Source of the DNA: Alcanivorax borkumensis SK2
GTDB taxonomy: Bacteria > Pseudomonadota > Gammaproteobacteria > Pseudomonadales > Alcanivoracaceae
Assembly (NCBI RefSeq): GCF_000009365.1
Contig: NC_008260.1
Span: 2,389,001-2,453,000 of the forward strand
Length of the DNA stretch: 64,000 nt
Direction: 5' to 3'
Every line of letters begins with the position of its first letter. The first letter of the stretch is position 1. The notes under the pieces are model-generated. The model worked only from the letters and a program-made list of their open reading frames with translations. It did no database searches and had not been told where the DNA came from. Below, piece by piece: positions 44,195-62,257 of this stretch. The translations under genes were made by a program, and so were the position numbers.

Positions 44195-44282
44195 GGGCAC
44201 ATTAACGCGATATAACTTCCGTTATGTTTTCTCAAAGCAAACACCACAAACTCGATTTTTTTTCGCTCTAATAATAGGGTTG

Positions 44283-46862: not shown

Positions 46863-47007
46863 ATGCGACAGGCCATTTAATTCCCGTCAATCGCAATCAC
46901 GCCGGCTAAATCGAGCCCTGTTTAATAGTCGCCGCACCTTGATGCGGAGGGCCTGATTGCCTACCATCTTCCGGTTCTGAGCCAACCACCTGGATCCCTT
47001 GTCACTC

Positions 47008-48924
47008 ATGAGTGTGAGCTATCAACTGCCCGATGGGGCAAATATGGAGTTTGAGCAGCCGGTCTCCGCCTTGGAAATTGCCGGTCGCATCAGTAAAAAA
47101 CTCGCCAAGCAAGCTTTGGCCGCTAAAGCCAACGGCAACCTGATTGATGTCTATCTGCCCATCGACGACGGCGCCACGGTGGAAATCATCACCCGAGATA
47201 CCGACGAAGCCCTAGAGCTTATTCGTCACGATGCCGCCCATGTTATGGCCCAAGCCGTGCAGGAGCTGTTTCCAGACACCCAGGTGACTATTGGCCCAAC
47301 CATTGCCAACGGCTTCTATTATGACTTCCATCGGGACATACCGTTCACACCGGATGACCTGAAAACCATTGAAAAGCGCATGCTAGAGATTGTGCGCCGC
47401 AATGAGGAAATAAGGCGTGAAATATGGGATCGAGATGAGGCTGTCGCTTTTTTCCTGGAAAAAGGTGAAGAATTTAAGGCCGAAATCATCCGTGACCTGC
47501 CCGCCGATCAAGAAGTGAGCCTCTATCGCCAGGGCGATTTCATCGACCTGTGTCGTGGCCCGCACCTGCCCAGCACCAGCAAACTGGGCGATGGCTTCAA
47601 ACTGACTAAGGTCGCTGGCGCTTACTGGCGTGGCGATGCTGACAAGGCGCAACTACAGCGCATCTACGGCACCGCCTGGCGCGACAAGAAAGAGTTGAAC
47701 GCTTACCTCAAACAGCTTGAAGAAGCGGAAAAACGCGATCACCGTAAACTGGCCAAGGAAATGGGTCTATTCCATATCCAACAAGAAGCGGTAGGCAGCA
47801 TGTTCTGGCACCCTAAGGGCTGGCGCATGCGCAAAAACCTGGAAAATTACATCCGCGGAAAAATGGAAAAAGGAGGCTATGAAGAAGTCTCCACTCCGCA
47901 AATGATGGATCGTATTCTCTGGGAACAATCCGGCCATTGGGACAAATACGGCGAAGACATGTTCACCGTCTGCACCCACGACCACAAAGAAATGGCCGTG
48001 AAGCCGATGAACTGCCCCGGCCACGTACAGATCTTCAAACAGGGGATCACCAGCTACCGAGACTTGCCCATTCGCTTGGGAGAGTTCACCACCCTGTTCC
48101 GTAACGAAGCCCACGGCGCCCTACATGGCCTGATGCGAGCCCGCTCGTTCAGCCAGGACGATGCTCACATCTTCTGTACCGAAGAGCAGGTTAACGAAGA
48201 AACCGCCGGCTTCATCAAGATGCTGCGCGAAGTCTACGCAGATTTTGGATTCGACTCGTTCCGTATCAAATTCTCGGACCGCCCGGATAACCGCGCCGGC
48301 TCCGACGAAACCTGGGACAAAGCCGAAGGCGCACTGCGCTCGGCGGTGGAATCCCTGGGCCTGGAATGCGAGCTTAACCCGGGTGAAGGGGCCTTCTACG
48401 GCCCAAAACTGGAGTTCGTGCTCCGTGACGCCATTGGCCGTGACTGGCAGTGCGGCACCCTGCAGGTGGACTTTGTGCTGCCCGATCGCCTGGATGCCGA
48501 ATACGTGGCCGAGGACGGCTCCCGCCAGCGCCCAGTCATGTTGCACCGTGCTGTTCTGGGCTCTTTGGAACGCTTCCTCGGCATCCTGATCGAGTCCACC
48601 GCCGGTCACCTACCCCTGTGGCTAGCGCCGCGGCCGGTGGCGGTTTGCACCATTACCAACTCCGCCGACGAGTATGCCACCACCGTGCAGCAGAAACTGG
48701 TTGCCGCCGGGATACCGGCAGAGCTGGATATTCGTAACGAGAAGATTGGCTTCAAGGTCCGTGAGCACTCCCGCGCCAAAACCCCGCGTATCTGGGTAAT
48801 TGGCGAGCAGGAAGCACAACACAACCAAGTCGCTATTCGTACCCTTGGCTCCCAAGCCACCGAAACCGTAGATCTGGACGAAGCCGTGGCGGCCTTGGCC
48901 GAAGCAACACGCTTACCGATCTGA
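47008..48924 (+). CDS. thrS: Threonyl-tRNA synthetase, divergent type not linked to infC
   Basis: This is 638 residues from ATG 47008; a TTG nine bases earlier is less likely. The TGS, editing and class II catalytic domains are all present. The zinc ligands Cys (MKPMNCPGH), His (GALHGL) and His (PVMLHRAVLGS) are kept. The catalytic core differs from usual gammaproteobacterial ThrRS: for example FRNEAHGALHGLMRARSFSQDD where H-R-N-E-P-S-G and M-R-V-R-G-F are standard. The usual thrS-infC-rpmI-rplT order is not seen; hisI and cysS follow instead. I infer a second, possibly zinc-limitation-induced copy. Confidence 0.93.
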   Translation: MSVSYQLPDGANMEFEQPVSALEIAGRISKKLAKQALAAKANGNLIDVYLPIDDGATVEIITRDTDEALELIRHDAAHVMAQAVQELFPDTQVTIGPTIANGFYYDFHRDIPFTPDDLKTIEKRMLEIVRRNEEIRREIWDRDEAVAFFLEKGEEFKAEIIRDLPADQEVSLYRQGDFIDLCRGPHLPSTSKLGDGFKLTKVAGAYWRGDADKAQLQRIYGTAWRDKKELNAYLKQLEEAEKRDHRKLAKEMGLFHIQQEAVGSMFWHPKGWRMRKNLENYIRGKMEKGGYEEVSTPQMMDRILWEQSGHWDKYGEDMFTVCTHDHKEMAVKPMNCPGHVQIFKQGITSYRDLPIRLGEFTTLFRNEAHGALHGLMRARSFSQDDAHIFCTEEQVNEETAGFIKMLREVYADFGFDSFRIKFSDRPDNRAGSDETWDKAEGALRSAVESLGLECELNPGEGAFYGPKLEFVLRDAIGRDWQCGTLQVDFVLPDRLDAEYVAEDGSRQRPVMLHRAVLGSLERFLGILIESTAGHLPLWLAPRPVAVCTITNSADEYATTVQQKLVAAGIPAELDIRNEKIGFKVREHSRAKTPRIWVIGEQEAQHNQVAIRTLGSQATETVDLDEAVAALAEATRLPI

Positions 48925-48967
48925 CCCGGCGCCACTGGTAAGAGTACCCCTCAAGGTGCGAACTGTG

Positions 48968-49016
48968 CTCGGGAAAGCTTTCGCAAGCAGGTTCGCCCCT
49001 CAAGAGGGGCGCCTAC
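48968..49016. repeat. REP-like hairpin between thrS and hisI
   Basis: CGCCCCTC and GAGGGGCG form an 8-bp near-perfect palindrome, preceded by a smaller GCTTTCGCAAGC stem. The TAGGCGCCCC/GGGGCGAACC form resembles dispersed palindromes of gammaproteobacteria. It separates thrS from hisI. Confidence 0.5.
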
Positions 49017-49045
49017 ATCCTGAATAGAAACGCCCTGGAGGCGTC

Positions 49046-49474
49046 ATGTTCAAACACAACGAACAACAGCCCGAAGGCTTTCAGATTTCCCTCAAAGAAG
49101 CCCTCGACAACTTGGCGTTCAACGACGCCGGGCTAGTGGCAGCCATTGCTCAGCAGCACGATAGTGGCGAAGTATTGATGATGGCATGGATGAATCGCGA
49201 GGCCATTGAAGAGACTCTGGCCACGGGACGCGTTTGCTATTTTTCCCGCTCGCGAGGGAAGTTATGGCGTAAAGGCGAATCCTCCGGCCAAGTACAAACG
49301 CTGAAAGAACTGCGCATTGATTGCGACGGCGACGCCTTGCTAGTGAAAGTGGACCAGACCGGCTCCGCTTGCCACACCGGCCGCCGCGACTGCTTCTACT
49401 GGAAAGCCGACGCCAACAACGTGACCATCGACAAAGCCCCCATCAAAGACCCCAAAGAGCTGTACGGCAAATGA
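49046..49474 (+). CDS. hisI: Phosphoribosyl-AMP cyclohydrolase
   Basis: This is 142 residues from the ATG at 49046 after [45 protein letters not shown] and the metal segments DCDGDALL and [10 protein letters not shown] are those of HisI; the three zinc Cys are present. The enzyme opens the purine ring of phosphoribosyl-AMP in histidine synthesis. It is away from any other his gene, and its stop overlaps the cysS start by ATGA. That unusual partner supports a zinc-starvation paralogue set rather than a his operon. Confidence 0.94.
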
Positions 49475-50853
49475 CCTTACGATTGCAGAACACCCTCACC
49501 GGCAAAAAGGACGACTTCATTCCGCTGGACCCTAACCGCATCACCCTTTACGTGTGCGGCCCCACGGTTTACAACTTCGTCCACATTGGCAACGCTCGCC
49601 CGGTGGTGGTCTTTGATGTTCTGTACCGGTTACTGCAACGGCTCTACCCGAACGTGGTCTACGCCCGTAACATCACCGACATTGATGACAAGATCATCAA
49701 GGCGGCAGCGGATAACGGCGAAGCGATCAGCACCCTCACCGAACGCTTTACCCAAGCTTTTGCCGACGACATGGCATCATTGAATGCCAAAACCCCAAGC
49801 ATCATTCCCAAGGCTACCGATCACATCCCCGAGATGATCCAGATGATCGCTATCTTGGTAGAAAAAGGGCACGCCTACGAAGCCGATGGCCAAGTGCTGT
49901 TCGCGGTGGAATCCATGCCCGACTACGGCAAGCTCTCCGGTCGCAAACTGGAAGACATGCTTGCTGGCGCTCGGGTGGAAGTGGCGGACTACAAACGCCA
50001 CCCCGGCGATTTCATTCTTTGGAAACCGTCCACCGATGAACAGCCCGGCTGGGACTCCCCTTGGGGACGTGGCCGCCCTGGCTGGCACATCGAGTGTTCC
50101 GCCATGATCCACAAGCACCTGGGTGATGTAATTGATATCCACGGTGGTGGCCAGGATCTAATCTTCCCGCACCACGAAAACGAAATTGCCCAAGGCTGCT
50201 GCGCCCACGGAACCGACTACGTGCGTTACTGGCTGCACAACGGCTACATCAACATCGACGGCGAAAAGATGTCCAAGTCCTTGGGCAACTTCCGTTTGGT
50301 CCGCGACTTGCTCACCCAGTACCACGGCGAAACGCTGCGCTTCGCGTTACTATCGAGCCACTACCGCTCGCCGCTGAATTTCTCTGCCGATGTACTGGAT
50401 AATGCAGAAAAAGGCTTGGATACGCTCTATTACGCCTTGCTCGGTCGCGGTGAAACCGTTGCACCAGAAGCGGGCTATCAACTGCCGGACAACCATCCGG
50501 TACTCGACGCTCTTAAGGACGATCTGAACACCTCCGAAGCGGTCAGCGCCTTGCACGCTATTGCCGGTGAACTGAACAAGGCCGAGCTTGACGACAAGCC
50601 CAAGCTGAAAGCCGAACTACTGGCCGCCGCCGACCTGCTCGGCCTGCTCACCGTAGAGCCCACCGCCTGGTTCCAGAACAAGAACGTGAGCGAAGATGGC
50701 CTCAGCAACGATGCCATCGACGCCCTGGTGGAAGAACGCACCCAAGCCAAGAAAGACAAAAACTTCGCTCGCGCCGATGAAATCCGCCAGCAACTCACCA
50801 AAGCAGGTATTCAACTGGAAGATACCCGCGAAGGCACCCGCTGGAGTCGATGA
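49471..50853 (+). CDS. cysS: Cysteinyl-tRNA synthetase
   Basis: This is 460 residues from ATG 49471, overlapping the hisI stop by four bases. The class I motifs are HIGNARP (HIGH) and KMSKSLGN (KMSKS). The zinc ligands are Cys in YVCGPTVYN, Cys in GWHIECSAM, and His and Glu in the PHHENE segment. It charges tRNA-Cys. Length and domain order are normal. Whether the genome has a second cysS decides if this is the housekeeping gene or a zinc-limitation duplicate. Confidence 0.96.
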
Positions 50854-50915
50854 AAGATAGCGCCAAGCGGCTTGCTCTTAGCCAACGAGAAAAACAGATT
50901 TTTATTATCTGAAAC

Positions 50916-50959
50916 GAAAGAGGCCGCGCCTAGAGCATAGCTTGGGCGCAGCCTCTTTC
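50916..50959. terminator. Bidirectional hairpin terminator
   Basis: GAAAGAGGC, then GCGCC, pairs with GGGCGC, then GCCTCTTTC between convergent cysS and the START-domain gene. It is the most complete member of the recurring AGGCCGC terminator family. Confidence 0.78.
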
Positions 50960-51074
50960 GGTCAAAACTCAATAACGGGCTATCGCATCTATCAACCAGA
51001 AACTCACAGGCAATAAAGCTATATAGCTGGCATAGGCCAAAGGCCGCCCCCGAGACGGCCATTCTTGGCGAAGA

Positions 51075-51800
51075 TCAGTCTTCCAGCATCAGCTCGTCCA
51101 TACCCGGCAGGGCTGGCAAATCTTTTCGGGTGGCATTGGCAAAGCGTGGCTTTTCCAACTGCGCCTTCAAACCTTCCAGAGTTTCCAATGGCGCCTTGGT
51201 GGACACCAAATTAGTCAACCATACCGGTACGCTGCCGCCCAAATCCATGAAGGTTTCGAACTGGACCCGCACCCAACCATTATCCATGGGCGTAATAATG
51301 AACTTGTTATCTAATGCAGGGATACGCACATAACCTTTCTGTTTACCTAGCACACCTTCGGCATTGACACTGTGCAAGGTAATTGAGCCAGTTTCTTCGT
51401 GCTGGATAAGCGTGTTGGCCAGCACCACATCACGGTCCGATACCGGCCAGATGCCGTTAAAGCGCATGTAAATTTCTTCGCGCCCTTCCATTGATAGCCG
51501 CTTGGCGCTCTGACTCTGGAAAATCCACTCAGGTAAAGTATCCACTGCGGTAATGACTGCCAGCACCGAGGTAACGGATGCCTCAACCTCAACAATACCT
51601 TTGAAGGCTTTGACCGGACTGTTGGAAACATCCCGCACATAAGTCGTAACATCACCTCGAACCTCGCCTTCCTGGCTTATTTTCCAGCTTGCCGCCCAAG
51701 CTGGATTCAGCAGCATTAGGAAGGTTAACAACAGCGTCACAAACATCGCTTGCAAAGGCCTTCTCCTTACTTTTCTCTTCAACACAAATAGATTATCCAT
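51075..51800 (-). CDS. START-domain lipid-binding protein, exported
   Basis: This is about 241 residues from ATG 51800; a later start at 51746 is also possible. After a signal peptide or anchor (LLLTFLMLLNPAWAA), the rest is a START/Bet v1-like domain: a helix then VSNSPVKAFKGIVEV, then PEWIFQSQSAKRLS and YMRFNGIWPVSDRDVV. Bacterial START proteins bind hydrophobic ligands such as lipids or sterol-like molecules. Periplasmic lipid transfer is plausible. No partner gene is adjacent. Confidence 0.85.
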   Translation of the reverse strand: MDNLFVLKRKVRRRPLQAMFVTLLLTFLMLLNPAWAASWKISQEGEVRGDVTTYVRDVSNSPVKAFKGIVEVEASVTSVLAVITAVDTLPEWIFQSQSAKRLSMEGREEIYMRFNGIWPVSDRDVVLANTLIQHEETGSITLHSVNAEGVLGKQKGYVRIPALDNKFIITPMDNGWVRVQFETFMDLGGSVPVWLTNLVSTKAPLETLEGLKAQLEKPRFANATRKDLPALPGMDELMLED

Positions 51801-52393
51801 CCACACTGACTTCAGTATCCTGCAAGCGCGCAGGCAAACAAGCGCCGGCAAGAGATTGGCCCCAATTACCAGTACAGCCGATGGCGACCCAAGGCCGGTG
51901 ACTCTGCGCCAAGATGTCCCCTTTCAACTACGGGTAACGCTTCACTGCCTCCAGCTTGGCATTGCAGCAGCACTCACTACTGCCCATGTCAGACATGTTT
52001 CTGCGGGGATCCCGCCATTGTTTAATAGCCCGCACCAACCATTCCCGCACATGAAAGGCTAGGAAAATAAGCACAGGCTTCCTTTTACCTTTAATCTACT
52101 ACTGAACGCTCCTTGCGTACTCAGCCCCCAGACGCGCTCGGAATCTAGACGCCATGTTAAAAGTGTGCCCACCTATCGAAAAAGCGCAACAATGTGTTCG
52201 AGTCAGCCAAGAAAACCTCGATAGCCCGGCCGATCACTTTTCTCATGGGCTTCCCTACCTTGGTACTGAGGTTACGTGCTTTGCCTATATCATCATTATA
52301 GCGCAGCACTTTCTTATCACCCTGCCTGTTAGCGCCATGGAACAGCGCTGGTATATGCGTACCCGATGCCTTTATCATGCTCTTTTACAACTA
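51801..52393. other. 593-base stretch upstream of yidD
   Basis: No gene is supported. The yidD frame stays open back to 52154, but that part has no YidD-like residues. A dyad, GTGCT then CTATA, N7, TATAG then AGCAC, lies at 52276-52309. Confidence 0.5.
52276..52309. promoter_or_regulatory. Dyad upstream of yidD, possible metalloregulator site
   Basis: GTGCT-N4-CTATA-N7-TATAG-N3-AGCAC is a two-level palindrome. The position, about 85-120 bases before yidD, and the AT-rich core would suit a Zur- or Fur-type repressor, but the core does not match the Zur consensus I know. Confidence 0.3.
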
Positions 52394-52708
52394 ATGACAG
52401 GCAGCGCTGTTCCCGTGAAATCGCTTCTGCTTGGCGCCATCTGGCTGTACCAGAAGGTGTTGAGCCCTTGGATAGGCAACCAATGCCGCTTCTACCCCAC
52501 CTGCTCGGAATACGCACGGCAGGCGGTAGAGACCCATGGCAGCCTGCGCGGCAGCGCACTGGCAGCGAAACGGCTGTGCAAGTGCCACCCTTGGCACCCA
52601 GGCGGTTTTGACTATGTGCCTGGCGCCGTGCCTGGCGCCGAGCCTGACCAGGAACAGCATCAGTGCACCCCGCTATGCAACCACCACAGCGAGGATCACT
52701 CACAGTGA
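52394..52708 (+). CDS. yidD: YidD membrane-insertion factor with a Cys/His tail
   Basis: This is about 104 residues from ATG 52394; GTG 52415 is another likely start and both have weak ribosome sites. The YidD core is clear: LLLGAIWLYQKVLSPWIGNQCRFYPTCSEYA and LCKCHPWHPGGFDYVP. YidD helps insert inner-membrane proteins. It is usually next to rpmH-rnpA-yidC, but here it stands alone. After the core comes an unusual tail with CTPLCNHHSEDHS, a likely metal-binding stretch. Its stop overlaps the next start by GTGA. Confidence 0.85.
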   Translation: MTGSAVPVKSLLLGAIWLYQKVLSPWIGNQCRFYPTCSEYARQAVETHGSLRGSALAAKRLCKCHPWHPGGFDYVPGAVPGAEPDQEQHQCTPLCNHHSEDHSQ

Positions 52709-53037
52709 TCGCGGCCATGCTGAGCCCATACCGTCGCGGGCACTCTTTGCCGCTGGTTTTACCGCTGGTTGTCGGGCTGTTTCTTGTCCAATTAATACTG
52801 GCATGGCACGCCCCCGCCCACATTGACGCAGGACAGCACAGCCCCACCACAGACCTGTTAGCCTCCGCCGATTGCCAGGTCTGTACCCATGGCCACGGCA
52901 TGCTGGCTCTGCCCAGCGCCTACAACGTGCTAGATTCCACACACACAGCGGCCGTTCCGCTTGCCCCCGCCACCACCGTGGCAAACCGCTACGAGCGCAA
53001 CCCCTACCCGCCTCGCGGCCCTCCTTTCTCTGTCTGA
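52705..53037 (+). CDS. DUF2946-like membrane protein
   Basis: This is 110 residues from GTG 52705, which overlaps the yidD stop; ATG 52717 is the alternative. One N-terminal membrane helix (LVLPLVVGLFLVQLILAW) is followed by a His-rich exported part with HAPAHIDAGQHS and CQVCTHGHG. The Cys-x-x-Cys-x-His-Gly pattern is typical of DUF2946 proteins, often near metal (copper or zinc) uptake genes. It probably presents a metal site in the periplasm. It leads into the TonB receptor gene. Confidence 0.7.
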   Translation: MIAAMLSPYRRGHSLPLVLPLVVGLFLVQLILAWHAPAHIDAGQHSPTTDLLASADCQVCTHGHGMLALPSAYNVLDSTHTAAVPLAPATTVANRYERNPYPPRGPPFSV

Positions 53038-53218
53038 TTCCCGTTATTAACACCTGATCACGATGGCACACCACCTTGCTTCTCTACTCGAGTGGCATTT
53101 GCTGTGCTTGGCTGCCTTCAGGAAAGAACGTGTTTCCGGCATGAGTCCGGCCAGCCCCTTTAATCCAGCTGCGCCCTTTTACTCATGCCCTGCATGAATG
53201 CTAGAGACAGAGGTAGTT

Positions 53219-55288
53219 ATGACTTTTCGACGCCAGACCCTCTCCGGGTGCGTCGCCGTGGCCCTATTGGCACCCACGGCAGTATTGGCTGAAGCTGAAA
53301 ACAACAGTGCAGGCCTAGAAAAAGCTCACGAGCTAAAACAAGTGGACGTGTCCGCCCTGCCGCTCGGAAGCAGCAGCTCCAGCACACCCTATTCGGTGAT
53401 GGATCAACAAACCCTCACTCAGAAGAACAAGGACACCCTCGGTGAAACCCTGAAAAACCAGCCCGGAGTCCACAGCGACACCTTCGGTGGTGGCGCCAGT
53501 CGACCGGTGATCCGTGGCCAAGGGGGCCCACGCATAGGTATTCTCAGTGACGGCTCCCAGGTGCTGGATGCTTCCAGCATTTCACCAGACCATGCCATCA
53601 CTGTAGACCCAATGCTGGCTCGTCAGATCGAGGTTCTACGCGGCCCATCTACCCTGCTTTATGGCAGCGGCGCCAGCGGTGGCATTGTAAATGTGCTAGA
53701 CAACCGCATTCCCACTCAACGGCCTCTAGAAGAGGTGGAAGGTTTCGTGGCAATCCGAGCCAACAGCGTGGCCGATGAGAACGCCACCGCTGCAGGCATC
53801 ACCGTTTCCGCTACCGACCATTTGGTATTTCGGGTGGAAGGTAGCCGTCGCGATGCGGAGGACTACGAAGTAAACGGCTTCGAAGAGCTCACCGTCCCAG
53901 GCACCTATGCGGAAAGCGACAATGCCAGCATTGGAGCCTCCTGGATTGGCGATCAAGGTTTCTTCGGCATGGCTTACAGCTATCGCCGAGATAACTACGG
54001 GCTGCCCGGTCATAGCCACGAATTTGAAGAGTGCGAGGCCAACGGCACCAGCTTGAGCTGTCCTTCTGGAGGCCATGATCACGACCATGAGGGCGAAATT
54101 GTCCCCTACGTGGATCTGGCCAGCCGTCGAGTGGATGCTCGAGGTGAATACCGCGACCCATTCTCTGGCATTGCCGCCATTCGTTTTCGAGGTAACCACA
54201 CCGATTACCGCCACCACGAAATCGAAGAAGGGGCCATCGGCAGTACTTTCACCAACAAGGGTGGAGACGCCCGGCTGGAAGTGGAGCACAAACCGTTCGG
54301 TAACTGGCGCGGCGTGGTAGGACTTCAGTACACCAACTTCGATTTCAGCTCCCTGGGGCATGAAGCCTTCGTGCCGAAAACCGAAACTGAATCTATCGCC
54401 ATATTCGCGGTAGAGGAATATGTCCTCAATGAACAATGGTCCTTCGAATTGGGGGCGCGCCAGGAGCACCTGACGCAAACACCGGACCAACGCAATGGCC
54501 AGGCTCTTGCCAAAGTCACAGCGGACAATGCGTCTTTCTCCGGCGCAGCCAACTGGGCCTTTGTTCCCGGTTACGAGCTAGTACTGTCCGTAGGCCACTC
54601 TGGCCGAGCACCCAGCGCCCAAGAGTTGTATGCACAGGGGGTCCATCTGGCCACCAACACCTATGAATGCGGCCTGCTCAGCGATTGCGGTGGAGGACAA
54701 CGTGACTTGGACGATGAAGTCAGCCTCAACGCCAACCTGAACCTACGTAAAACCCGTGGGGATTGGTTGTTTGATCTGGGCGTGTTCGAAAACCGTATCA
54801 ACAACTACATCTATGCCCGCACTCTGGATCAGCAGGAAGACTTCCGCCTGATCAAATACAGCCAACGTGACGCCACCTTCACGGGTGCCGAAGCATCCGT
54901 GAGTTACTACGGTATCGACCCGGTTGGCATCACCGTATTTGGGGATATGGTCCGCGCTACTTTCGATGACGGCGGCTACCTGCCTCGCATTCCGGCCAAG
55001 CGACTGGGCACACGCCTCAATAGCTACCTGGGTAACTTCGACGGTGAACTGGAAGTGTATCGCAGCTTCGTTCAGGACCAACTTTCCGGGTTCGAAGAGC
55101 GCACCGCCGCCTACGACATGGTCAACGCCACTCTCAGCTACCGACTACGAGGCAACCAGCGCTATACCTTCTATGTGCGCGGTAACAACCTGCTGGGTGA
55201 AGAAGTGTTCAACCACTCGTCTTTCCTAGCCAGCACCGTGCCGGAGCCGGGCCGCAATATCACCGTAGGCACCCGCATTGAATTTTGA
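53219..55288 (+). CDS. znuD: ZnuD-like TonB-dependent zinc receptor
   Basis: This is 689 residues from ATG 53219, with AGAGG six bases upstream, and a signal peptide ending near AVLAEAE. A plug domain (about 40-165, with RPVIRGQGGPRIGILSDG) is followed by a 22-strand barrel ending in Phe. An extracellular loop holds GHSHEFEECEANG and CPSGGHDHDHEG, the His/Cys-rich loop that captures zinc in ZnuD. It would import zinc or zinc-loaded ligands using TonB energy. The AztD-like gene follows 74 bases later. Confidence 0.9.
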   Translation: MTFRRQTLSGCVAVALLAPTAVLAEAENNSAGLEKAHELKQVDVSALPLGSSSSSTPYSVMDQQTLTQKNKDTLGETLKNQPGVHSDTFGGGASRPVIRGQGGPRIGILSDGSQVLDASSISPDHAITVDPMLARQIEVLRGPSTLLYGSGASGGIVNVLDNRIPTQRPLEEVEGFVAIRANSVADENATAAGITVSATDHLVFRVEGSRRDAEDYEVNGFEELTVPGTYAESDNASIGASWIGDQGFFGMAYSYRRDNYGLPGHSHEFEECEANGTSLSCPSGGHDHDHEGEIVPYVDLASRRVDARGEYRDPFSGIAAIRFRGNHTDYRHHEIEEGAIGSTFTNKGGDARLEVEHKPFGNWRGVVGLQYTNFDFSSLGHEAFVPKTETESIAIFAVEEYVLNEQWSFELGARQEHLTQTPDQRNGQALAKVTADNASFSGAANWAFVPGYELVLSVGHSGRAPSAQELYAQGVHLATNTYECGLLSDCGGGQRDLDDEVSLNANLNLRKTRGDWLFDLGVFENRINNYIYARTLDQQEDFRLIKYSQRDATFTGAEASVSYYGIDPVGITVFGDMVRATFDDGGYLPRIPAKRLGTRLNSYLGNFDGELEVYRSFVQDQLSGFEERTAAYDMVNATLSYRLRGNQRYTFYVRGNNLLGEEVFNHSSFLASTVPEPGRNITVGTRIEF

Positions 55289-55362
55289 GCCGCAACGTTA
55301 AACGGCATCCGTACCGGCGCCTTTACTCCGCCGGACGCAACAATATGAATATGGAGAACCCC

Positions 55363-56670
55363 ATGCAACGCATGATGAAAAACCTGAAACAGAACGCTGC
55401 ACTGCCGCTGTCCCTGCTTGCCGCTCTTACCATGGTCGGCTGTAATGAAACGGGCTCCAGCTCACTGGGTAGCAGTGAAGATGAACACGAGCATGCAGAG
55501 AGTGATCACCCCGGCCGCTTAGTGATTGCCGCTGGTGATGACGGCTCTCAGCTCTACATGTATGACCTTGAGGCCAATGCCTTGCTGCCCGGCACCTTGA
55601 CCCTGGATTATGATGCCAGCGCACTCTACACCAGCCCGGGCAAGCGTTTTGTTCTGGCGATACAGCGTGATAACGACCAGGTACAGGTCATCGATGGCGG
55701 CCTCTATTTGCATGACGACCACGTGGATGAAGTGATTCCCTCCTTCGCAGGAACGCTGACTGGCCCGGCACCAACCCACTTTCGGGTTCATGGTGAACAG
55801 GCCGCTCTGTTCTATGATGGCGATGCAGACAACGCTGTCATGGCCCAGATGGAGCTCCTCACCGATGAATCTTTGGAAACGGCCTCCAGCGAAGCCAGCC
55901 AAACGCTAACCAGCGCTCACCATGGCGTTGCAGAACCCCGTGGCGATGTGTTGCTCACCACCTTCCGCACCGCCGACGACGGCCTCCCGGAAACCGTTGA
56001 CGTCTACCATCAGCACAACGATCACTATCACAAGGAAGACACCATCTCACTAACCTGCCCAGAGCTACATGGCGCAGGCTCAAACGAAGATTATTCTGTG
56101 TTTGGCTGCGACGACGGCATCCTGATCGTCCACCAGAACGGTGAGGAATTCACCGCAGAGCATGTGGATAACGCTACCCTAGGCCTTGCGGCTGGAGAGC
56201 GCATTAGCGGCTTCGACAGCCATCACGAACTGAGCCATTTCATAGGCTATGCCGGTGATCGAGTCTTCGTCATACATCCGGAAGATGGCGATGCTGAAGA
56301 ACTGGATTGGACCGAAGGCGCCACCGTATCGCTAGAAAACCATAGCCTTGATCCCCACGCTGAGCACCTAGTGCTGCTGGATGATGCCGGTGACCTGCGC
56401 ATCTTTGACACAACCGATTGGAGTGAACATGCGCACGTAGAAGATGCCATCGCGCCGGGCAATACTCATATGGTTGTGGCCGGTGAGCCCGCACATGTTT
56501 ATCTTTCCGATAGCGGCAACCAATTTATCCTCGTGGTGCACCTGGAGGAAGGCAGCGTTGAAGAATCACTACCTTTGACCTTCCCGCCTGCGGCTCTTGC
56601 TTGGGCTGGCCTTGATACCGACCATGACGAAGAAGACCATGAGGACGAAGACGATGGTCATGACCATTAA
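55363..56670 (+). CDS. AztD-like zinc-binding lipoprotein
   Basis: This is 435 residues from ATG 55363, eight bases after GGAG, with lipobox TMVGC. The body reads as a repeated beta-propeller (LVIAAGDDGSQLYMYDLE, RFVLAIQRDNDQVQVIDGG, GVAEPRGDVLLTTFR, FDSHHELSHFIGYAGDRVFVIHPEDG). The N-terminus has EDEHEHAESDH and the C-terminus ends DHEDEDDGHDH, both metal-binding. AztD proteins pass zinc to ABC-importer binding proteins in the periplasm. The role is supported by its place right after the ZnuD-like receptor; similarity itself is by family pattern. Confidence 0.78.
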   Translation: MQRMMKNLKQNAALPLSLLAALTMVGCNETGSSSLGSSEDEHEHAESDHPGRLVIAAGDDGSQLYMYDLEANALLPGTLTLDYDASALYTSPGKRFVLAIQRDNDQVQVIDGGLYLHDDHVDEVIPSFAGTLTGPAPTHFRVHGEQAALFYDGDADNAVMAQMELLTDESLETASSEASQTLTSAHHGVAEPRGDVLLTTFRTADDGLPETVDVYHQHNDHYHKEDTISLTCPELHGAGSNEDYSVFGCDDGILIVHQNGEEFTAEHVDNATLGLAAGERISGFDSHHELSHFIGYAGDRVFVIHPEDGDAEELDWTEGATVSLENHSLDPHAEHLVLLDDAGDLRIFDTTDWSEHAHVEDAIAPGNTHMVVAGEPAHVYLSDSGNQFILVVHLEEGSVEESLPLTFPPAALAWAGLDTDHDEEDHEDEDDGHDH

Positions 56671-56832
56671 TCGTCGAAACGGCTAACCGCAGGCTACTTG
56701 CAGGGGATTTTCTTCACCTTTTGCAAGCAGCCCGCCGTTTCCTCCCAAGACAGCGCTGGTCGCCGTCGACCTCACTTTTCACTACAATCAGTCTATTATT
56801 GCGTCGAGACTTAATACCCTGTGGGAGAACCC

Positions 56833-57351
56833 ATGAAAAAAGTACTGTTTGCCGCGGCTTTGACAATGCCCCTTGTCGCCAACGCCGGCGGTTTTGCTGG
56901 TATTGATATCATTAGCAGCAAAATTGAACCTGATAACACCACGTCTAGCGCCAAGCCCGAAGCGCTGCAATTCAAATTCGGCAGCTGGATCAACAAGGAT
57001 GAGACCCTTGGTGGTGAAGTGCGTCTGGGCTTGGGCATTGATGAAGATGAACTGAGCAACAATGTTGACGTGGAAATCGACCGTTACTACGGCGCCTATT
57101 TCCGTGGCCAATTCCCCAACACCATGCCTGTGCGCCCCTACGGACTGATCGGTGTCACCTACATGGAAACCACCGAGAAGAGTGATTTGGGTGGTTCTGA
57201 CGGAGAAAACTACAAAGACCTGTCACTGGGCCTCGGTGTAGATTTCACCATCACCAAGACCCTGTTCATCAACCTAGAGTATATGCGGCTCGTGGATCGC
57301 AGCGGTGACGAAATCACTCATGTGGGGCTGGGCCTGAACGGCCGATTCTGA
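56833..57351 (+). CDS. Outer-membrane beta-barrel protein, OmpA/OmpX-like
   Basis: This is 172 residues from ATG 56833 after GGAG. The signal peptide (KKVLFAAALTMPLVANA) is clear. Alternating strands (ALQFKFGSWINKDETLGGEVRLGLGI, YYGAYFRGQF, PYGLIGVTYMETTEKS, LSLGLGVDFTITKTLFINLEYMRL) and a C-terminal Phe indicate an eight-stranded barrel. No substrate can be assigned. It is followed by a strong terminator and preceded by 160 bases, so it is probably a single-gene unit. Confidence 0.85.
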   Translation: MKKVLFAAALTMPLVANAGGFAGIDIISSKIEPDNTTSSAKPEALQFKFGSWINKDETLGGEVRLGLGIDEDELSNNVDVEIDRYYGAYFRGQFPNTMPVRPYGLIGVTYMETTEKSDLGGSDGENYKDLSLGLGVDFTITKTLFINLEYMRLVDRSGDEITHVGLGLNGRF

Positions 57352-57380
57352 TTCCACCACAGCACTCACGCTGCACAAAA

Positions 57381-57412
57381 ACGCCCACCATTATTTAGTG
57401 GGCGTTTTTTTG
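57381..57412 (+). terminator. Rho-independent terminator
   Basis: ACGCCCAC and GTGGGCGT form an 8-bp stem, followed by a run of T. It lies 30 bases after the beta-barrel stop codon. Confidence 0.92.
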
Positions 57413-57511
57413 TAAGGCTCAAAAAAAAACAGTTTGTCATGCGCTACACGTTAGGAGAGAGGAGCCTTAGCCCCATTCGCTCATCTGCTCATCCTCACAA
57501 TCATTGCCCCA

Positions 57512-57985
57512 TTATGAATAAGGCATGATCAACAGAGGCTGGCGAATGTGTCGGGCAACGTAATCTGCAACACTACCAACCAATAGCCGCTGCCAGTTTT
57601 TTTGTCGTCGTCGCTGAAGAATGACCAGATTCACCGCCTCACGATCGGCGACCTCGGTAATCACCTGACCGGTCTTACTACCCCGCGCCACCCGCGAGTC
57701 CACTTCATAGCCCATGGATTCCAGCTTTCGTGTGATATCCAGCATATGACGCTGCAACTCCACTTCTCGCGCAGCCACCTGCTGGCGTAACTGGCTCGGA
57801 GGGACCAAGCGTTTTCGAAACAGGGCGAGACTTTCCTCTGGGACCTCACACACCATCAGCACCAACAGGGACAAGGTGTCAGGGTCGATCAGGTCGGTGG
57901 CGGGATCCAGCTGATCAAGCGGCACCAAGGGGTCTACCGCATACAGCGCTTTACGCTTGTCTTGCTCGGGATTGGACAGTGGCAT
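57512..57985 (-). CDS. Universal stress protein (UspA family)
   Basis: This 157-residue protein keeps the C-terminal Usp signature: VARGSKTGQVITEVADREAVNLVIL, then LLVGSVADYVARHIRQPLLIMP with the G-S-V-A-x-x-V pattern. The N-terminal strand-loop part is atypical. It starts directly after the symporter stop codon (TGAATG), so the two are cotranslated. A link between a Usp protein and a solute symporter has been seen elsewhere as regulation of transport, which is a guess here. Confidence 0.88.
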   Translation of the reverse strand: MPLSNPEQDKRKALYAVDPLVPLDQLDPATDLIDPDTLSLLVLMVCEVPEESLALFRKRLVPPSQLRQQVAAREVELQRHMLDITRKLESMGYEVDSRVARGSKTGQVITEVADREAVNLVILQRRRQKNWQRLLVGSVADYVARHIRQPLLIMPYS

Positions 57986-59383
57986 TCACTCCTCCTTCCG
58001 GTAGAAAGGCCGCATCACGGCATAAACCCCAAAAGACACCACCAGGGCCGGCAACAATTCATACAGGGATTCAGAATAACCAAGCGCCTGCCAGGTAATC
58101 AGTGTAGTGAAACCCGCAAGCATCATCACCAACGCCGTGGTCCGAGTCAGGCGGGCATTCATCACCCGCAGCACAATCACCGGCCCCAAGGTGCCCCCCA
58201 GAGACGACCACGCGAACACTACCAGCGTAAACACATTAGCCGGCGCGGCCAGCGCCACCACCAGCACCACTAAGGTAATGCCCAAGGTCGCTATTTTGGT
58301 TCGGACATAGGATTGCCCGAACCGGGGAATCAAATCCTGGCTGATCGCCGCTGAGCAGGACAGTAACATGGAATCCGCCGTGGACAAGGTGGCGGCAAAA
58401 ATGGCCGCCAGCACCATGCCGGCCAGCACATCAGGCAAATAAGCCTGAGCCATGGTGGGCAGTGTCAGCTCCGGATCAGACAGATCTCCTGTGAGTAGTA
58501 CGCGGGCGTAGAGACTGATGGTCACGGTCAGAAGCGCAAAGGGCAGGTACCAGGCAAAGTACACCTTGCGGGCCGCCGGGACGTCGTCCGGGCTGCGTAA
58601 CGCAATGGTACGCACTAAAATATGCGGCTGACCAATAGCGCCAATGCCCGCCGCCACCCAGCCCAGTACAAAAGCACCGGTGCCAAAGGCCAAGTTATCC
58701 GGGGTCCAATCCAGCAGGGCCGGGTTAATGTTGCGCAGCTCATCGACCAGCGTCCACGGAAAACCCACGTTGATCATGGCAACAATGCACAACAGTACCA
58801 TGCCAAACAACATCACAAACGACTGGGCTACATCAGTCCAAATAGACGCCCGTAAACCACCGGCAAAGGAATACAGCACCACCACGACCGCACCCAATAC
58901 CGCACCCAGCCAAATTGGCCAGTCAAACATAACATGCAACGCCTTGCTTCCCGCCTTGAGCTGCGCAGCCGCATAAACCGACAGGAATATTAGGGTCAGC
59001 AGTGCAGACAAAATACGCAGGGGGCTGGAAGCCAACTCAGGGTTCTGGGAGGTGAGAGCGGGGATGGTATTGACCGGATGGGTTTCCGAATACTCTCGCA
59101 GGCGACGATGGAACCCTCGCCAAACAAACCAGTCCCCCACTAACCAGCCTAGCGCCACCCAGAAGGCCGACACACCGGCTACCCAGGTATAGCCAACCAG
59201 GCCGATAAACATGTACCCGGAGTTATTGGTGGCCACGGAAGACAGCCCGATGATCCACGCCGGGGTGTTATACCCCGCTGTCAGATAATCGTTAACGTCC
59301 TCATGTTTTTTCCGGATCGAGGAAATGCCGATAATCAGAAATAACGCCAGCACGCACAGAAAGCTGATCGCGGTGACACCCAT
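57986..59383 (-). CDS. Sodium:solute symporter (SSS family, PutP-like)
   Basis: This 465-residue inner-membrane protein has about 13 helices. SSS motifs include SSVATNNSGYMFIGLVGYTW, GGLRASIWTDVAQSFVMLFG and FAATLSTADSMLLSCSAAIS with the sodium-site Ser/Thr. It is related to proline and other amino-acid or carboxylate symporters; the substrate cannot be named. It is cotranscribed with the UspA protein immediately downstream. Confidence 0.92.
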   Translation of the reverse strand: MGVTAISFLCVLALFLIIGISSIRKKHEDVNDYLTAGYNTPAWIIGLSSVATNNSGYMFIGLVGYTWVAGVSAFWVALGWLVGDWFVWRGFHRRLREYSETHPVNTIPALTSQNPELASSPLRILSALLTLIFLSVYAAAQLKAGSKALHVMFDWPIWLGAVLGAVVVVLYSFAGGLRASIWTDVAQSFVMLFGMVLLCIVAMINVGFPWTLVDELRNINPALLDWTPDNLAFGTGAFVLGWVAAGIGAIGQPHILVRTIALRSPDDVPAARKVYFAWYLPFALLTVTISLYARVLLTGDLSDPELTLPTMAQAYLPDVLAGMVLAAIFAATLSTADSMLLSCSAAISQDLIPRFGQSYVRTKIATLGITLVVLVVALAAPANVFTLVVFAWSSLGGTLGPVIVLRVMNARLTRTTALVMMLAGFTTLITWQALGYSESLYELLPALVVSFGVYAVMRPFYRKEE

Positions 59384-59827
59384 ACGCTAAACCGAACTCA
59401 GTTGAATTTACGATCCAGCATACACCCGTCTCACACCGCGGGGGCTGCCCCATATCAATTTATTAGCGACAGTCTAGTCGGGCTGTAAAAATTACACTGA
59501 CGACAAATCTACGTCGGGAGGGCCGCCTCGAAAAGGCGCCCAGACATTTCGCATCAATAATCTTTCAATCTTCTACCTAAGCCCTTTTGTAACAGACCGT
59601 CTTGCTGCGAAGCATTTTCATAGTAATCTAGAGCACGGTGTAGCCATTGACAAAACTTTATAGGTTTTAGCGCTGTTACTAAAAATCGACCCCATGACAG
59701 AGAGCTATCCATTTCCCAAACAGACTCCACGCCCACATCAGCCGGAAAGGCGGTCAACCGTGACACACAATTTGAATGTCCTCTTTATAAAATGTTCAGA
59801 GGATAATAAACATCCTGACACGCCCAG
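59384..59827. other. Intergenic stretch with a hairpin and one doubtful short frame
   Basis: A REP-like hairpin GGGCCGCCT, then AGGCGCCC, is at about 59519-59552. A 70-codon minus-strand frame (59554-59766) starts at GTG without a ribosome site. Its residues (FLVTALKPIKFCQWLHRALDYY) look protein-like but match nothing I know, and it may be a remnant. GC content drops from here to about 60890. Confidence 0.45.
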
Positions 59828-60256
59828 TTAACCTGCATTAAAACAGCTTTTTACTTCTTCTAGAGTGGTCGCATAGCGAACGCAGAGCTCAACCTCTTCA
59901 TATTCAGACTCCCTATTTTTATACCTATTAAGCAATTTATTATATTTATCAATAATATCGTCATGCTCATGAGCAAGCTCTTTGCAATCATCCAACAAAT
60001 CATCATACTCATCGCCTAGATCTTCGTATTCTGATTTACATACGAAACCATCATAACCACAGGTACGGGAATCAAAACAAACAGCATCACGGCTTACACA
60101 TTTCGCATCAGAAGGACATGCACTATCCCCATAATTTAAGCAAGCAGCTTTTTTTCCATACGGACATGAGAAACTACTGCCATAAGCATGTGCCGAAAAA
60201 AAGATAAAAACAGCACTCAGTAACACCTGTCCGGCCACAAAGTTGATCTTCCCCAT
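59828..60256 (-). CDS. Secreted Cys-rich protein with a C-terminal coiled coil
   Basis: This 142-residue protein has a signal peptide ending near SAHAYGS. The first half is Cys-rich: SCPYGKKAACLNYGDSACPSDAKC, then AVCFDSRTCGYDGFVCKS, probably four to five disulfides. The second half (about 75-125) is a charged helix with heptad-like pattern. I know similar conserved hypothetical proteins in Pseudomonas-like genomes, but no function is assigned. It lies in an AT-rich patch, unlike its neighbours, which suggests transfer. Confidence 0.75.
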   Translation of the reverse strand: MGKINFVAGQVLLSAVFIFFSAHAYGSSFSCPYGKKAACLNYGDSACPSDAKCVSRDAVCFDSRTCGYDGFVCKSEYEDLGDEYDDLLDDCKELAHEHDDIIDKYNKLLNRYKNRESEYEEVELCVRYATTLEEVKSCFNAG

Positions 60257-61039
60257 TATTGATTCACCCCACCGTGATTCCTCGCCTTAATGACGAAACC
60301 TCATCTCATTTAAGAGAATGCCTTGCCAAAATACCTCAGGATCAGATTATAGCATTACCAAAATACCTGCCCTGTAAAACGGAAGGCTATTTTTGGGTGT
60401 CAATACAAAAGTGGGAGGGAGGCATTCATTCATATTCATAACACTCGTAGCATGCGCGGCTTTGGATTAGAGGCGCAGTAATAAAATGCTAAAGCTGTCG
60501 CCATATCTACGGTTGTGAATTTTTTCTTAGATTGCACTCTGTTGAATTCCGTTACCAATCTTGGCCCGTTCCCGTGCTTTGACGACTCGCCACGCTCAAA
60601 CATCCGCACATCAAGAGCACGTTGCGTTCGACCTTGTAAAATAAAGCCTCGGCGTTCCCACCGCATAATACGAAGTGACTACCTGCATTGGCCCATCACC
60701 AATATACCTGCAAAGATCACCATGCTGCCCCCAAGATAGCGTGACCTTTTGATCTTTTTTAAAAGCGAATGAGAGCTTAAGGTCTGAGTCGAAATAAACG
60801 ATAACGACGGTATCAGTGGATGAGCGAAATCCGGTTGACAATACAATGCACTGGGGAGAGGAGGAGAACACCTCTCATCTGAACACTTAAATCAGCGAAT
60901 TATTCTCTGAGTTACCCGGAAGGGTACCTTCCCAGAAAATAGCGATATCTCAAAAGGTTCGCATTTTCTGAAAGGCCTTATTCTACAAGAAGCCCCCCCC
61001 TTCGAGTAAGCTCGGCCGCAGAATAAGTCAGGTAAACAC
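60257..61039. other. AT-rich stretch with short unassigned frames
   Basis: Two overlapping minus-strand frames (60611-60871 and 60436-60666) are adjacent in different frames and could be one gene broken near 60660. They begin FSSSPQCIVLSTGFRSSTDT and continue RRGFILQGRTQRALDVRMF. I recognise no family. A 60-codon plus-strand frame at 60259 has no supported start. Confidence 0.4.
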
Positions 61040-61081
61040 AAAAAAAGCCCCCCTTCCAACAGGGGAAGGGGGGCTTTTTTT
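61040..61081. terminator. Strong bidirectional terminator downstream of folE2
   Basis: AAAAAAAGCCCCCCTTCC pairs with GGAAGGGGGGCTTTTTTT around a short loop. It ends the folE2 transcript on the minus strand and would also stop rightward transcription. Confidence 0.93.
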
Positions 61082-61122
61082 GTGTGCTGCATGCACCGCG
61101 TATTGCCAACCGCCTTTCTCAA

Positions 61123-62082
61123 TCAAGGAATGGGTAGGTAACCACCCTCCACTTCCTTGGTCACAATGGCGACCGCATTATGGGCGTGAAGGCTTTCCAG
61201 GTGATTCACACGCAACCAGAAATCCTTGTAACACGACTGCGGGTTCAGCGCGGTCTTCAAGCGGCGGGCCGCATCTTCACAGAACATCAGGTTCTGGCCG
61301 TTCAACAGCGCGAACTCCTGCTCGTCCACCCGCTTCACCGCAGTCTGCACCGGCGTCTTCAGAGCACCTTCAATAGAATCAATCAATGCGGTGATAGGAA
61401 AGGCATCACCAACATTGTGATCAAGCAAAACACGCACTTGCGCAATTGAACGCTGGCTGTGAGGAGTAGCAAGAATACCCTCTTCCGTGCCAAGCCATTC
61501 TAATACCGCATCGGTGTCCACTTTACTTTCTTCAAAATCTTTCCGAAATTGCTCCTGAATCAACTGTCGAGACAGGGCTGCCGAACAAGGGCAGGTAGAG
61601 GAATACGGCACTTCCACCGATAACTCAATGCGCATGCCATCTTCACACAGGGTGCCTTTAATACTGACCGGGTAACTTTTCCAACCGGAATAGCTGCTCT
61701 TCAAGGCTGCGCGGCGCATGGAATACTCAAAGTCGAGCTGTACAAAACCGCGTGTGCTGAGGCCCTCATGGGTCTGCAAGAAATTACGCAGTAGTTGCTC
61801 AATGGAGCCCGCACTGACCGAATGGTCACCAAAGGTCTCTTCCAGCATCAGGAACAGACGCGACATGTGAATGCCTTTGGCATCCGCATTGGCCAAATTC
61901 ACATAGGCCTGAATAGAAGTGCTCACCGGACGTTCGCCAGCCAAGGTATCGCTGACGCGAGCAGGCAAGTGGATCTCACTCATACCCACCCAATCTAGGG
62001 TGGTGTGAATATGATCCACCATGGAGTTAGACGCCACATCCGGCATCTGTTTGGTGCTACCGGCACCGTTGTCACGAGTCAT
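61123..62082 (-). CDS. folE2: Zinc-independent GTP cyclohydrolase IB
   Basis: This is 319 residues from ATG 62082, eight bases after GGAG; longer forms to 62115 use weaker starts. It has [22 protein letters not shown] at the start, [31 protein letters not shown] in the middle (the Cys of the active site) and [19 protein letters not shown] near the end, matching COG1469. FolE2 makes dihydroneopterin triphosphate using several metals and replaces zinc-dependent FolE. In many bacteria it is Zur-regulated. I see no clear Zur site upstream, but its proximity to zinc genes agrees with that role. Confidence 0.95.
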
Positions 62083-62257
62083 GGGATTCTCCATAGGGGC
62101 ACTGAAAACAGCCAAGGTAAGGCTGCCCAGGTGAACGAAACGGTAATCTGTTCGTCATCGCCCGCTCATACAAGGGGGGCAAGTCTAGCAGAAACTGATC
62201 AGCAAATTGACCATTTCCAGGCGCAGGTTTCGCTATCAACATGACAGAAAGGGACTA

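Follow-up and report, generated by a model that had tools for sequence, protein, structure and literature searches.

A thrS-hisI-cysS locus of sole housekeeping copies beside zinc genes in Alcanivorax borkumensis, with probable core exchange within thrS

We analyzed a window of 64,000 nucleotides (positions 2389001-2453000) of the Alcanivorax borkumensis SK2 genome, a complete genome (listed as 100%) of 3,120,143 bases in one contig. In this window the genes for threonyl-tRNA synthetase (ThrS, or ThrRS), phosphoribosyl-AMP cyclohydrolase (HisI) and cysteinyl-tRNA synthetase (CysS, or CysRS) lie close to genes associated with zinc. An initial annotation of the window had read this trio as a spare set of enzymes for zinc starvation. 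We find instead that the three genes are, with near certainty, the sole housekeeping copies in this assembly. We further consider it probable, with good confidence, that this housekeeping locus is a set of foreign type, that zinc importers have been kept or swapped beside it, and that its thrS has been recombining internally. Thus, the zinc neighborhood, the atypical thrS core and the separation of thrS from infC that the initial annotation described all stand, whereas the spare status of the genes does not, and no Zur site was found in the window.

Sole copies of thrS, hisI and cysS

A profile search detects one copy of thrS in the genome. It occupies positions 47008..48924 of the plus strand (TIGR00418, 684 bits against a cut-off of 384) and encodes 638 amino acids (aa) from an ATG at 47008, or 641 aa from a TTG at 46999. 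The further matches in this search are partial and fall in open reading frames (ORFs) of 592 and 435 aa, which presumably encode other class II synthetases. Likewise, genome searches detect one copy of hisI (49046..49474, plus strand; NF000768, 174 bits, cut-off 126) and one copy of cysS (49471..50853, plus strand; TIGR00435, 531 bits, cut-off 340). An overlap between two zinc enzyme genes had been noted initially, and we observed that hisI and cysS share 4 bases. FolE1 (PF01227) has no match in the SK2 genome, in a search that was positive in 11 of 14 control genomes, so FolE2 (61123..62115, minus strand; NF010200, 322 bits, cut-off 215) is the sole GTP cyclohydrolase I found. A second thrS beside infC, a second hisI or cysS, and folE, for all of which the initial annotation suggested a search, were not found in the genome, and with single copies of the trio and no FolE1 the claim that these genes are spares for zinc stress does not hold. 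That annotation had itself stated that its reading would fail if these were the only copies of thrS, hisI and cysS and none responded to zinc; the first half of this statement describes what the genome holds. Essential enzymes that lie near zinc genes could thus be mistaken for dispensable spares, and the annotation is corrected here.

The same copy number is seen across the family, in which 43 of 46 genomes have one ThrS each (in one of these, split over two contigs) and none of the 46 has two. A full-length ThrS was not found in G009, G013 and G030, which are 86-93% complete. The zinc ligand positions of ThrS and CysS are conserved in an alignment, and the sequence of HisI likewise shows its cysteines. 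ThrS and CysS therefore look like zinc enzymes, with none of the ligand loss that would mark zinc-independent isozymes.

Zinc genes and Zur sites near the trio

The zinc character of the region is conserved across the family, but not as a Zur-controlled stress set in this genome. Together with the window, 34 further loci gave a family set of 35, covering 35 of the 46 genomes; G009, G013 and G030 are among the 11 that it does not cover. The genes thrS, hisI and cysS are contiguous on a single strand in all 35 loci, and a zinc-uptake gene is present in 29 of them, the nearest lying 0.7-6.6 kb away. These importers are ZnuD/AztD-like, ZnuA-type ABC sets, or both, and they occur on either side of the trio; the Pfam ZnuA model (cut-off 29) matches the ZnuA-type proteins of L053, L054 and L049 at 129-135 bits. 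Because unrelated importers occur on both sides, we argue for a functional or regulatory link to zinc, and a functional tie of the trio to zinc, putative as it is, seems likely from this gene order, although the family rows are kin and hence give no independent count. Using this family's own importers as queries, which more distant importers would escape, we observed no match in any of 18 outgroup loci (6 thrS and 12 cysS loci), suggesting that the zinc link is not ancient. One outgroup locus, L188, has a folE2-like gene.

The initial annotation also suggested a search for zur. Two FUR-family genes are present in the genome, and the weaker one, at 1914753, accompanies a dksA-type gene, a COG0523 (cobW) GTPase gene and a DUF1826 gene in a locus (L062, 1914000-1920000) about 0.5 Mb away from the window thrS. 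This group is divergent from genes for a hexapeptide-repeat protein and an amidohydrolase, which, as we read the ORFs, would be a gamma-carbonic-anhydrase-like protein and a dihydroorotase, and a perfect palindrome, ATGTTATGTTATAACAT, lies between the two groups. From its gene context, we infer that the FUR-family gene at 1914753 is Zur. When the genome was searched for the pattern GTTATANNATAAC with at most 1 mismatch, 17 matches were obtained, as compared with 38 for a reversed control, indicating no enrichment; because the control gave more matches, we count only the exact match, which is that of the dksA-zur locus. A further site with perfect arms, at 793461, falls within an ORF.

A scan of upstream regions with a Zur matrix, also proposed initially, revealed no Zur site in the window, where the best score is 11.2 (at 44224) versus 13.1 in one shuffled window. 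Upstream of a small Cys-rich ORF (59828-60256), at 60346, there is a Zur-like pattern with 2 mismatches, which is probably there by chance because the matrix does not list it. Among relatives, L051 and L117 each have a Zur site about 97 bp upstream of the match to znuD. In 4 of the 35 loci (L053, L054, L059 and L121), a Zur site separates thrS from a divergent outer-membrane-protein/znuACB operon; its distance to the thrS match is 139-167 bp, and in three of the four it is closer to the importer. Four loci outside the matrix training set also have a site, which overlaps the 5' end of the yidD match in L041 and L042 (score 22.2) and lies about 65 bp before it in L044 and L045 (score 17.4), with znuD downstream in each case. 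None of the remaining family loci has a Zur site scoring above 12. The sites in relatives fit control of the importers, which we favor because of where they sit, and would also permit control of thrS.

Zur-linked paralogues of zinc enzymes, among them HisI, CysRS, ThrRS, FolE2, PyrC and DksA, are described in PMC2770081, which reports that zinc ligands are retained in the HisI, CysRS and ThrRS paralogues; Zur regulons are listed in PMC6103462. The SK2 trio resembles the paralogue sets of the former paper in its enzyme families, its retained ligands and its nearby zinc uptake genes. It differs from them as they appear there in that the SK2 copies are the sole ones, no Zur site was found beside them, and the Zur-type cluster is located elsewhere.

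Descent of the trio and of the ThrRS core

As the initial annotation had observed, thrS and infC are not neighbors. The distance between them is 0.33 Mb, infC being at 2109826-2110332, where rpmI-rplT-pheS adjoin it and no thrS occurs within 1.5 kb. In the order-mates G050, G176 and G262, thrS precedes infC. We found infC in 13 of 14 genomes searched (not in G044, which is 89% complete), and thrS is beside it in two of these loci (G050 and G176) and not within 1.5 kb of it in the other 11 (7 family, 4 outgroup). In 8 of these 11 thrS-less loci (L212, L213, L216, L217 and L219-L222), a tRNA-Val(GAC) gene lies 35-430 bp before infC. The same tRNA gene is present in 8 of 12 canonical thrS-infC loci, within 250 bp before thrS in 6 of the 12. 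A tRNA-Val gene before infC is the trace that would be expected if thrS had been excised.

Phylogenetic trees were constructed for ThrS from the 29 best class loci and three order-mates, and groupings were evaluated with the approximately unbiased (AU) test. For ThrS, a clade of the family with its order-mates, to which E. coli and two additional rows were added, was rejected (p 8e-6); the clade of family and order-mates was rejected for CysS as well (p 1e-61). The AU test also disfavored a ThrS clade with the plasmid island copies of Phaeobacter and Thioclava (p 0.029) and a CysS clade with the Paracoccus island copy (p 0.003). Among the matches listed from 140 genomes, the best CysS proteins outside the family are 60-62% identical to that of the window, while those of G050 and G176 are 46-47% identical. 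Adjacent hisI and cysS genes also occur in G078, G094, G170 and G159, with yidD or PyrC-like neighbors in three of them, and a more distant hisI adjoins cysS in G075 and G179. The HisI tree is given little weight, because only 8 of its 28 inner branches are well supported and because two HisI-annotated rows, one each from Phaeobacter and Thioclava, sit on a branch of 5.3 and look unrelated to HisI. In a homologue listing, the best 120 of 7999 entries are almost all close kin. Taken together, the trees, the gene order and the infC locus make it likely that the ThrRS and CysRS of the family are of a foreign type relative to its order. This would be a family without conserved thrS-infC linkage that runs on foreign-type ThrRS and CysRS.

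Plasmid zinc islands in Pantoea soli (L194), Phaeobacter (L193), Thioclava (L195) and Paracoccus (L190) share thrS, hisI, cysS, folE2 and zinc transport with the window, in various combinations. They differ in that their copies are on plasmids and, by annotation, mostly beside zur, zigA, COG0523 or DUF1826 genes. The trees do not join the window ThrS, CysS and HisI to the sampled island copies (the HisI tree being weak), and these copies form no single clade among themselves.

The thrS core had been described initially as atypical, and indeed the window carries DAIGRDWQCGTLQVD, a core motif shared with G131, G179, G059 and G257, while 18 of 33 gammaproteobacterial rows from outside the family carry DC(I/L)GRxWQ. 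Among the 43 family genomes with one ThrS each, 36, including the window, have a type that we call A and 7 have a type that we call B; the latter belong to three genera and are G001, G005 and G008 (genus g1), G019 (g2), and G031, G034 and G035 (g4). Within g1, ThrS identity to the window is either 89-95% or 72-74%, and the CysS proteins of the latter genomes are 92-94% identical to it. When the window ThrS is compared with that of G005, identity is 78-98% over alignment positions 1-250, 46-74% over positions 251-550 and 68-70% after 550. In the window gene, codons 1-240, numbered from 46999, encode the TGS and editing part (46999..47718, plus strand; TGS 9-65, SAD 173-223). The catalytic core, which is of A type by sliding identity and the core tree, corresponds to about codons 246-545 (47734..48633, plus strand), and the anticodon-binding domain follows at 48634..48921 of the same strand (HGTP_anticodon 547-635).

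Separate trees for these parts differ. In the core tree, B joins the order-mate G262 (100/98) and A is separate, and grouping the B cores of g1 with the A cores of g1 is rejected (p 4e-50). In the N-terminal tree, a single clade of the B genomes is rejected (p 0.0005) and the part follows genus, as do hisI and cysS; in the C-terminal tree a single B clade is not rejected (p 0.40). The clearest case at the DNA level is a pair of near sisters, G019 with type B and G020 with type A, which are 83-96% identical up to codon 240 and 57-80% identical from there to the end of thrS; beyond thrS, identity is 86-98% through hisI and cysS. Given the G019/G020 identities and the C-terminal tree, we conclude that the anticodon domain moved with the core in G019 and in g1, a joint move that is less clear in g4 than in g1 and g2. 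The first residue of solved, truncated ThrRS chains corresponds to residue 246 of the window protein, near this joint. On a tree of HisI-CysS and two further neighbors (35 loci), B requires five changes, at least four of which are forced by well-supported branches. As a pattern, exchange of the ThrRS core is strongly supported.

Several other versions of this exchange were considered and not retained. Replacement of the whole gene was our first inference and was dropped because the N-terminal third is native; exchange of the core alone is too narrow, since the anticodon domain accompanies the core in G019 and g1. Recent spread of B between genera is not supported, since four-fold sites diverge about equally in the two types (66.3% in B and 69.5% in A for the g1-g2 core); at the protein level, B cores are more alike between genera, at 98.6% versus 92.1% for A. 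The A and B cores differ in the residues that correspond to positions 480 and 489 of E. coli ThrRS, and according to PMC4389257, mutations at position 489 of the E. coli enzyme confer resistance to borrelidin. We found no inhibitor-resistance signature in B, however, since its residues occur in other canonical cores, Met489 being present in 24 of 29 of these.

Aminoacyl-tRNA synthetase (aaRS) homeoalleles, which are exchanged through biased gene transfer, are described in PMC3191353. One example there is a pair of TyrRS types that occupy the same syntenic place, and recombination between archaeal ThrRS types of about 29% identity is deemed unlikely. Likewise, in the family studied here a divergent isofunctional aaRS is swapped in place with its neighbors unchanged, and two divergent ThrRS types occur, one per genome, against the species tree. 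The homeoalleles of that paper are whole genes, whereas the family change starts inside thrS, near the joint of the catalytic domain. Separate parts of one aaRS were also tested for different histories in haloarchaeal LeuRS (PMC3436685). That system differs in being an archaeal class I enzyme, and the passages describing it mention no core that was exchanged again and again at one locus. Searches of an open-access library, which omits most subscription papers, brought up no account of a core being exchanged repeatedly within thrS.

A wider proposal, which we put forward only tentatively, is that ThrRS may serve as a cassette across the Gammaproteobacteria, in which the core is swapped repeatedly between two divergent types at one fixed joint immediately ahead of residue 246 and the native editing domain is retained. 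The swaps would be adaptive, for example in response to natural inhibitors or a changing zinc supply. Hybrids from outside the family fit this proposal: the ThrS of G248/G158 (L064/L066) has alternative flanks and a canonical core, and those of G059 (L074) and G257 (L091) have canonical flanks and an alternative core, G059 being weakly placed. If core exchange is true, the catalytic half of an essential tRNA synthetase is being replaced in nature with the enzyme's own proofreading domain left in place, and the near-sister pair G019/G020 offers material for comparing function, fidelity and the cause of the swap.

Alternative explanations and neighboring features

The initial proposal of a Zur-controlled spare set has several observations in its favor, in that zinc importers adjoin the trio, Zur sites lie between thrS and znu in the four relatives named above, plasmid islands elsewhere hold thrS, cysS, hisI and folE2 in the company of zur, zigA or COG0523 genes (one of them less clearly), and Zur-linked paralogues are known from PMC2770081. 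We nevertheless consider it highly improbable, given that the copies are the sole ones found, that the window has no Zur site, and that the AU tests separate ThrS and CysS from the sampled island copies. An ancestral Zur set, thrS2-hisI2-cysS2, might instead have displaced the housekeeping genes and later lost Zur control in Alcanivorax. The foreign-type ThrS and CysS, the lack of thrS at infC, the zinc neighbors and the Zur sites beside thrS in the four relatives are all consistent with this course of events, and the core tree places A, with weak support (59/97), on the side that includes the Pantoea, Phaeobacter and Thioclava island cores. We regard it as unlikely all the same, because the nearest CysS outside the family, among the matches listed, is single copy and in hisI-cysS loci without zinc genes, and because the island copies are not one clade and a clade with those sampled is disfavored by the AU tests. 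Somewhat less likely again, in our estimate, is that the trio is conserved by inertia and the importers merely landed nearby; the outgroup thrS and cysS loci without these zinc genes would agree with chance neighbors, but 29 of the 35 loci have importers, of unrelated kinds and on one side or the other, which argues against them. Finally, the A/B pattern could have arisen without replacement inside the gene if two ancient copies of thrS, tandem or allelic, were lost differentially, and the silent-site divergence of B between genera, which resembles that of A, would be compatible with this. We find it decidedly improbable, however, since none of the 43 ThrS-bearing genomes has both types, the N-terminal third of the B genomes follows genus, and the sharp difference between G019 and G020 is confined to the stretch of thrS that starts at codon 240.

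The housekeeping reading that we prefer would proceed as follows. The family would have lost an infC-linked thrS and an order-type cysS and would now rely on alternative ThrRS and CysRS. The genes thrS, hisI and cysS are the only, ordinary zinc-dependent copies and are probably transcribed constitutively. Unrelated zinc importers, whether ZnuD/AztD-like or made up of an outer-membrane protein and a ZnuA-type ABC set, would have been kept or swapped beside them, with the Zur sites in relatives placed mostly to control these importers and the recognizable Zur locus of SK2 lying elsewhere. From about codon 240, the thrS core, sometimes with the anticodon domain, would have been replaced in place, leaving the editing domain and the neighbors native, probably by homologous recombination via conserved stretches at the domain joint.

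A number of observations weigh against this reading. No importer was detected in 6 of the 35 loci (L040, L046, L055, L058, L122 and L125), which were counted as misses although three have little flank on at least one side; L040 has only an outer-membrane protein, with 3.4 kb covered downstream, and L122 and L125 have short flanks on one or both sides. The ZnuA-type family can transport other metals, so these sets are called zinc importers on the basis of the family name together with the Zur sites. Seven sites from this same analysis served to train the Zur matrix, and a shuffled window reached 13.1 with it. The AU groups were chosen after the trees had been inspected, under LG+G4 with no mixture model. 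The tRNA-Val gene was not found before infC in the window genome (G000), in G003 or in G018. Within thrS, the A core is weakly linked to alternative cores (59/97). When the B labels were shuffled, 34 of 500 arrangements needed as few changes, B being scattered and only loosely clustered, and the four-fold sites are near saturation and give no sign of recent transfer of B.

The genes named in the initial annotation were found at or near its coordinates by profile and ORF checks, with three qualifications of naming: thrS, hisI, cysS, yidD and FolE2 hold, ZnuD and AztD hold only as "-like", and the DUF2946 label does not. Downstream of cysS, a START-domain protein is encoded on the minus strand (51075..51851; PF01852, 29 bits), followed on the plus strand by yidD (52154..52708; TIGR00278, 87 bits, cut-off 40), whose conserved part starts at about residue 89 of the ORF. 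Close proximity of thrS and yidD is also seen in L109, L112 and Sinorhizobium meliloti (L208), where folE and an iron-sulfur scaffold gene are close to thrS too, and the thrS-yidD linkage may therefore predate the zinc genes. The small His/Cys-bearing protein encoded at 52663..53037 (plus strand), for which DUF2946 had been proposed, has no Pfam or NCBIfam match, and its homologues precede znuD in several relatives. The ZnuD-like TonB-dependent receptor with a His-rich loop (53198..55288, plus strand) scores 643 bits against NF038289, under the cut-off of 950. The AztD-like His/Asp-rich protein (55285..56670, plus strand) scores 79 bits against NF038015 (cut-off 400) with no Pfam match, and by these scores is a distant relative only. 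A small outer-membrane beta-barrel protein follows (56821..57351, plus strand; PF13505, 52 bits). An Rfam scan of positions 40000-64000 gave no matches at gathering scores, and a tRNA scan of the window found none.

The plasmid-encoded HisI proteins closest to that of the window are 66% identical to it and come from Pseudomonas putida plasmid p12969-2 and, with the same identity, seven Pseudomonas aeruginosa plasmids. On p12969-2 (L196, 6920-8142), hisI, yidD and a SufE-family gene lie among mercury-resistance (mer) genes, and this hisI possibly replaces a mercury-sensitive zinc enzyme.

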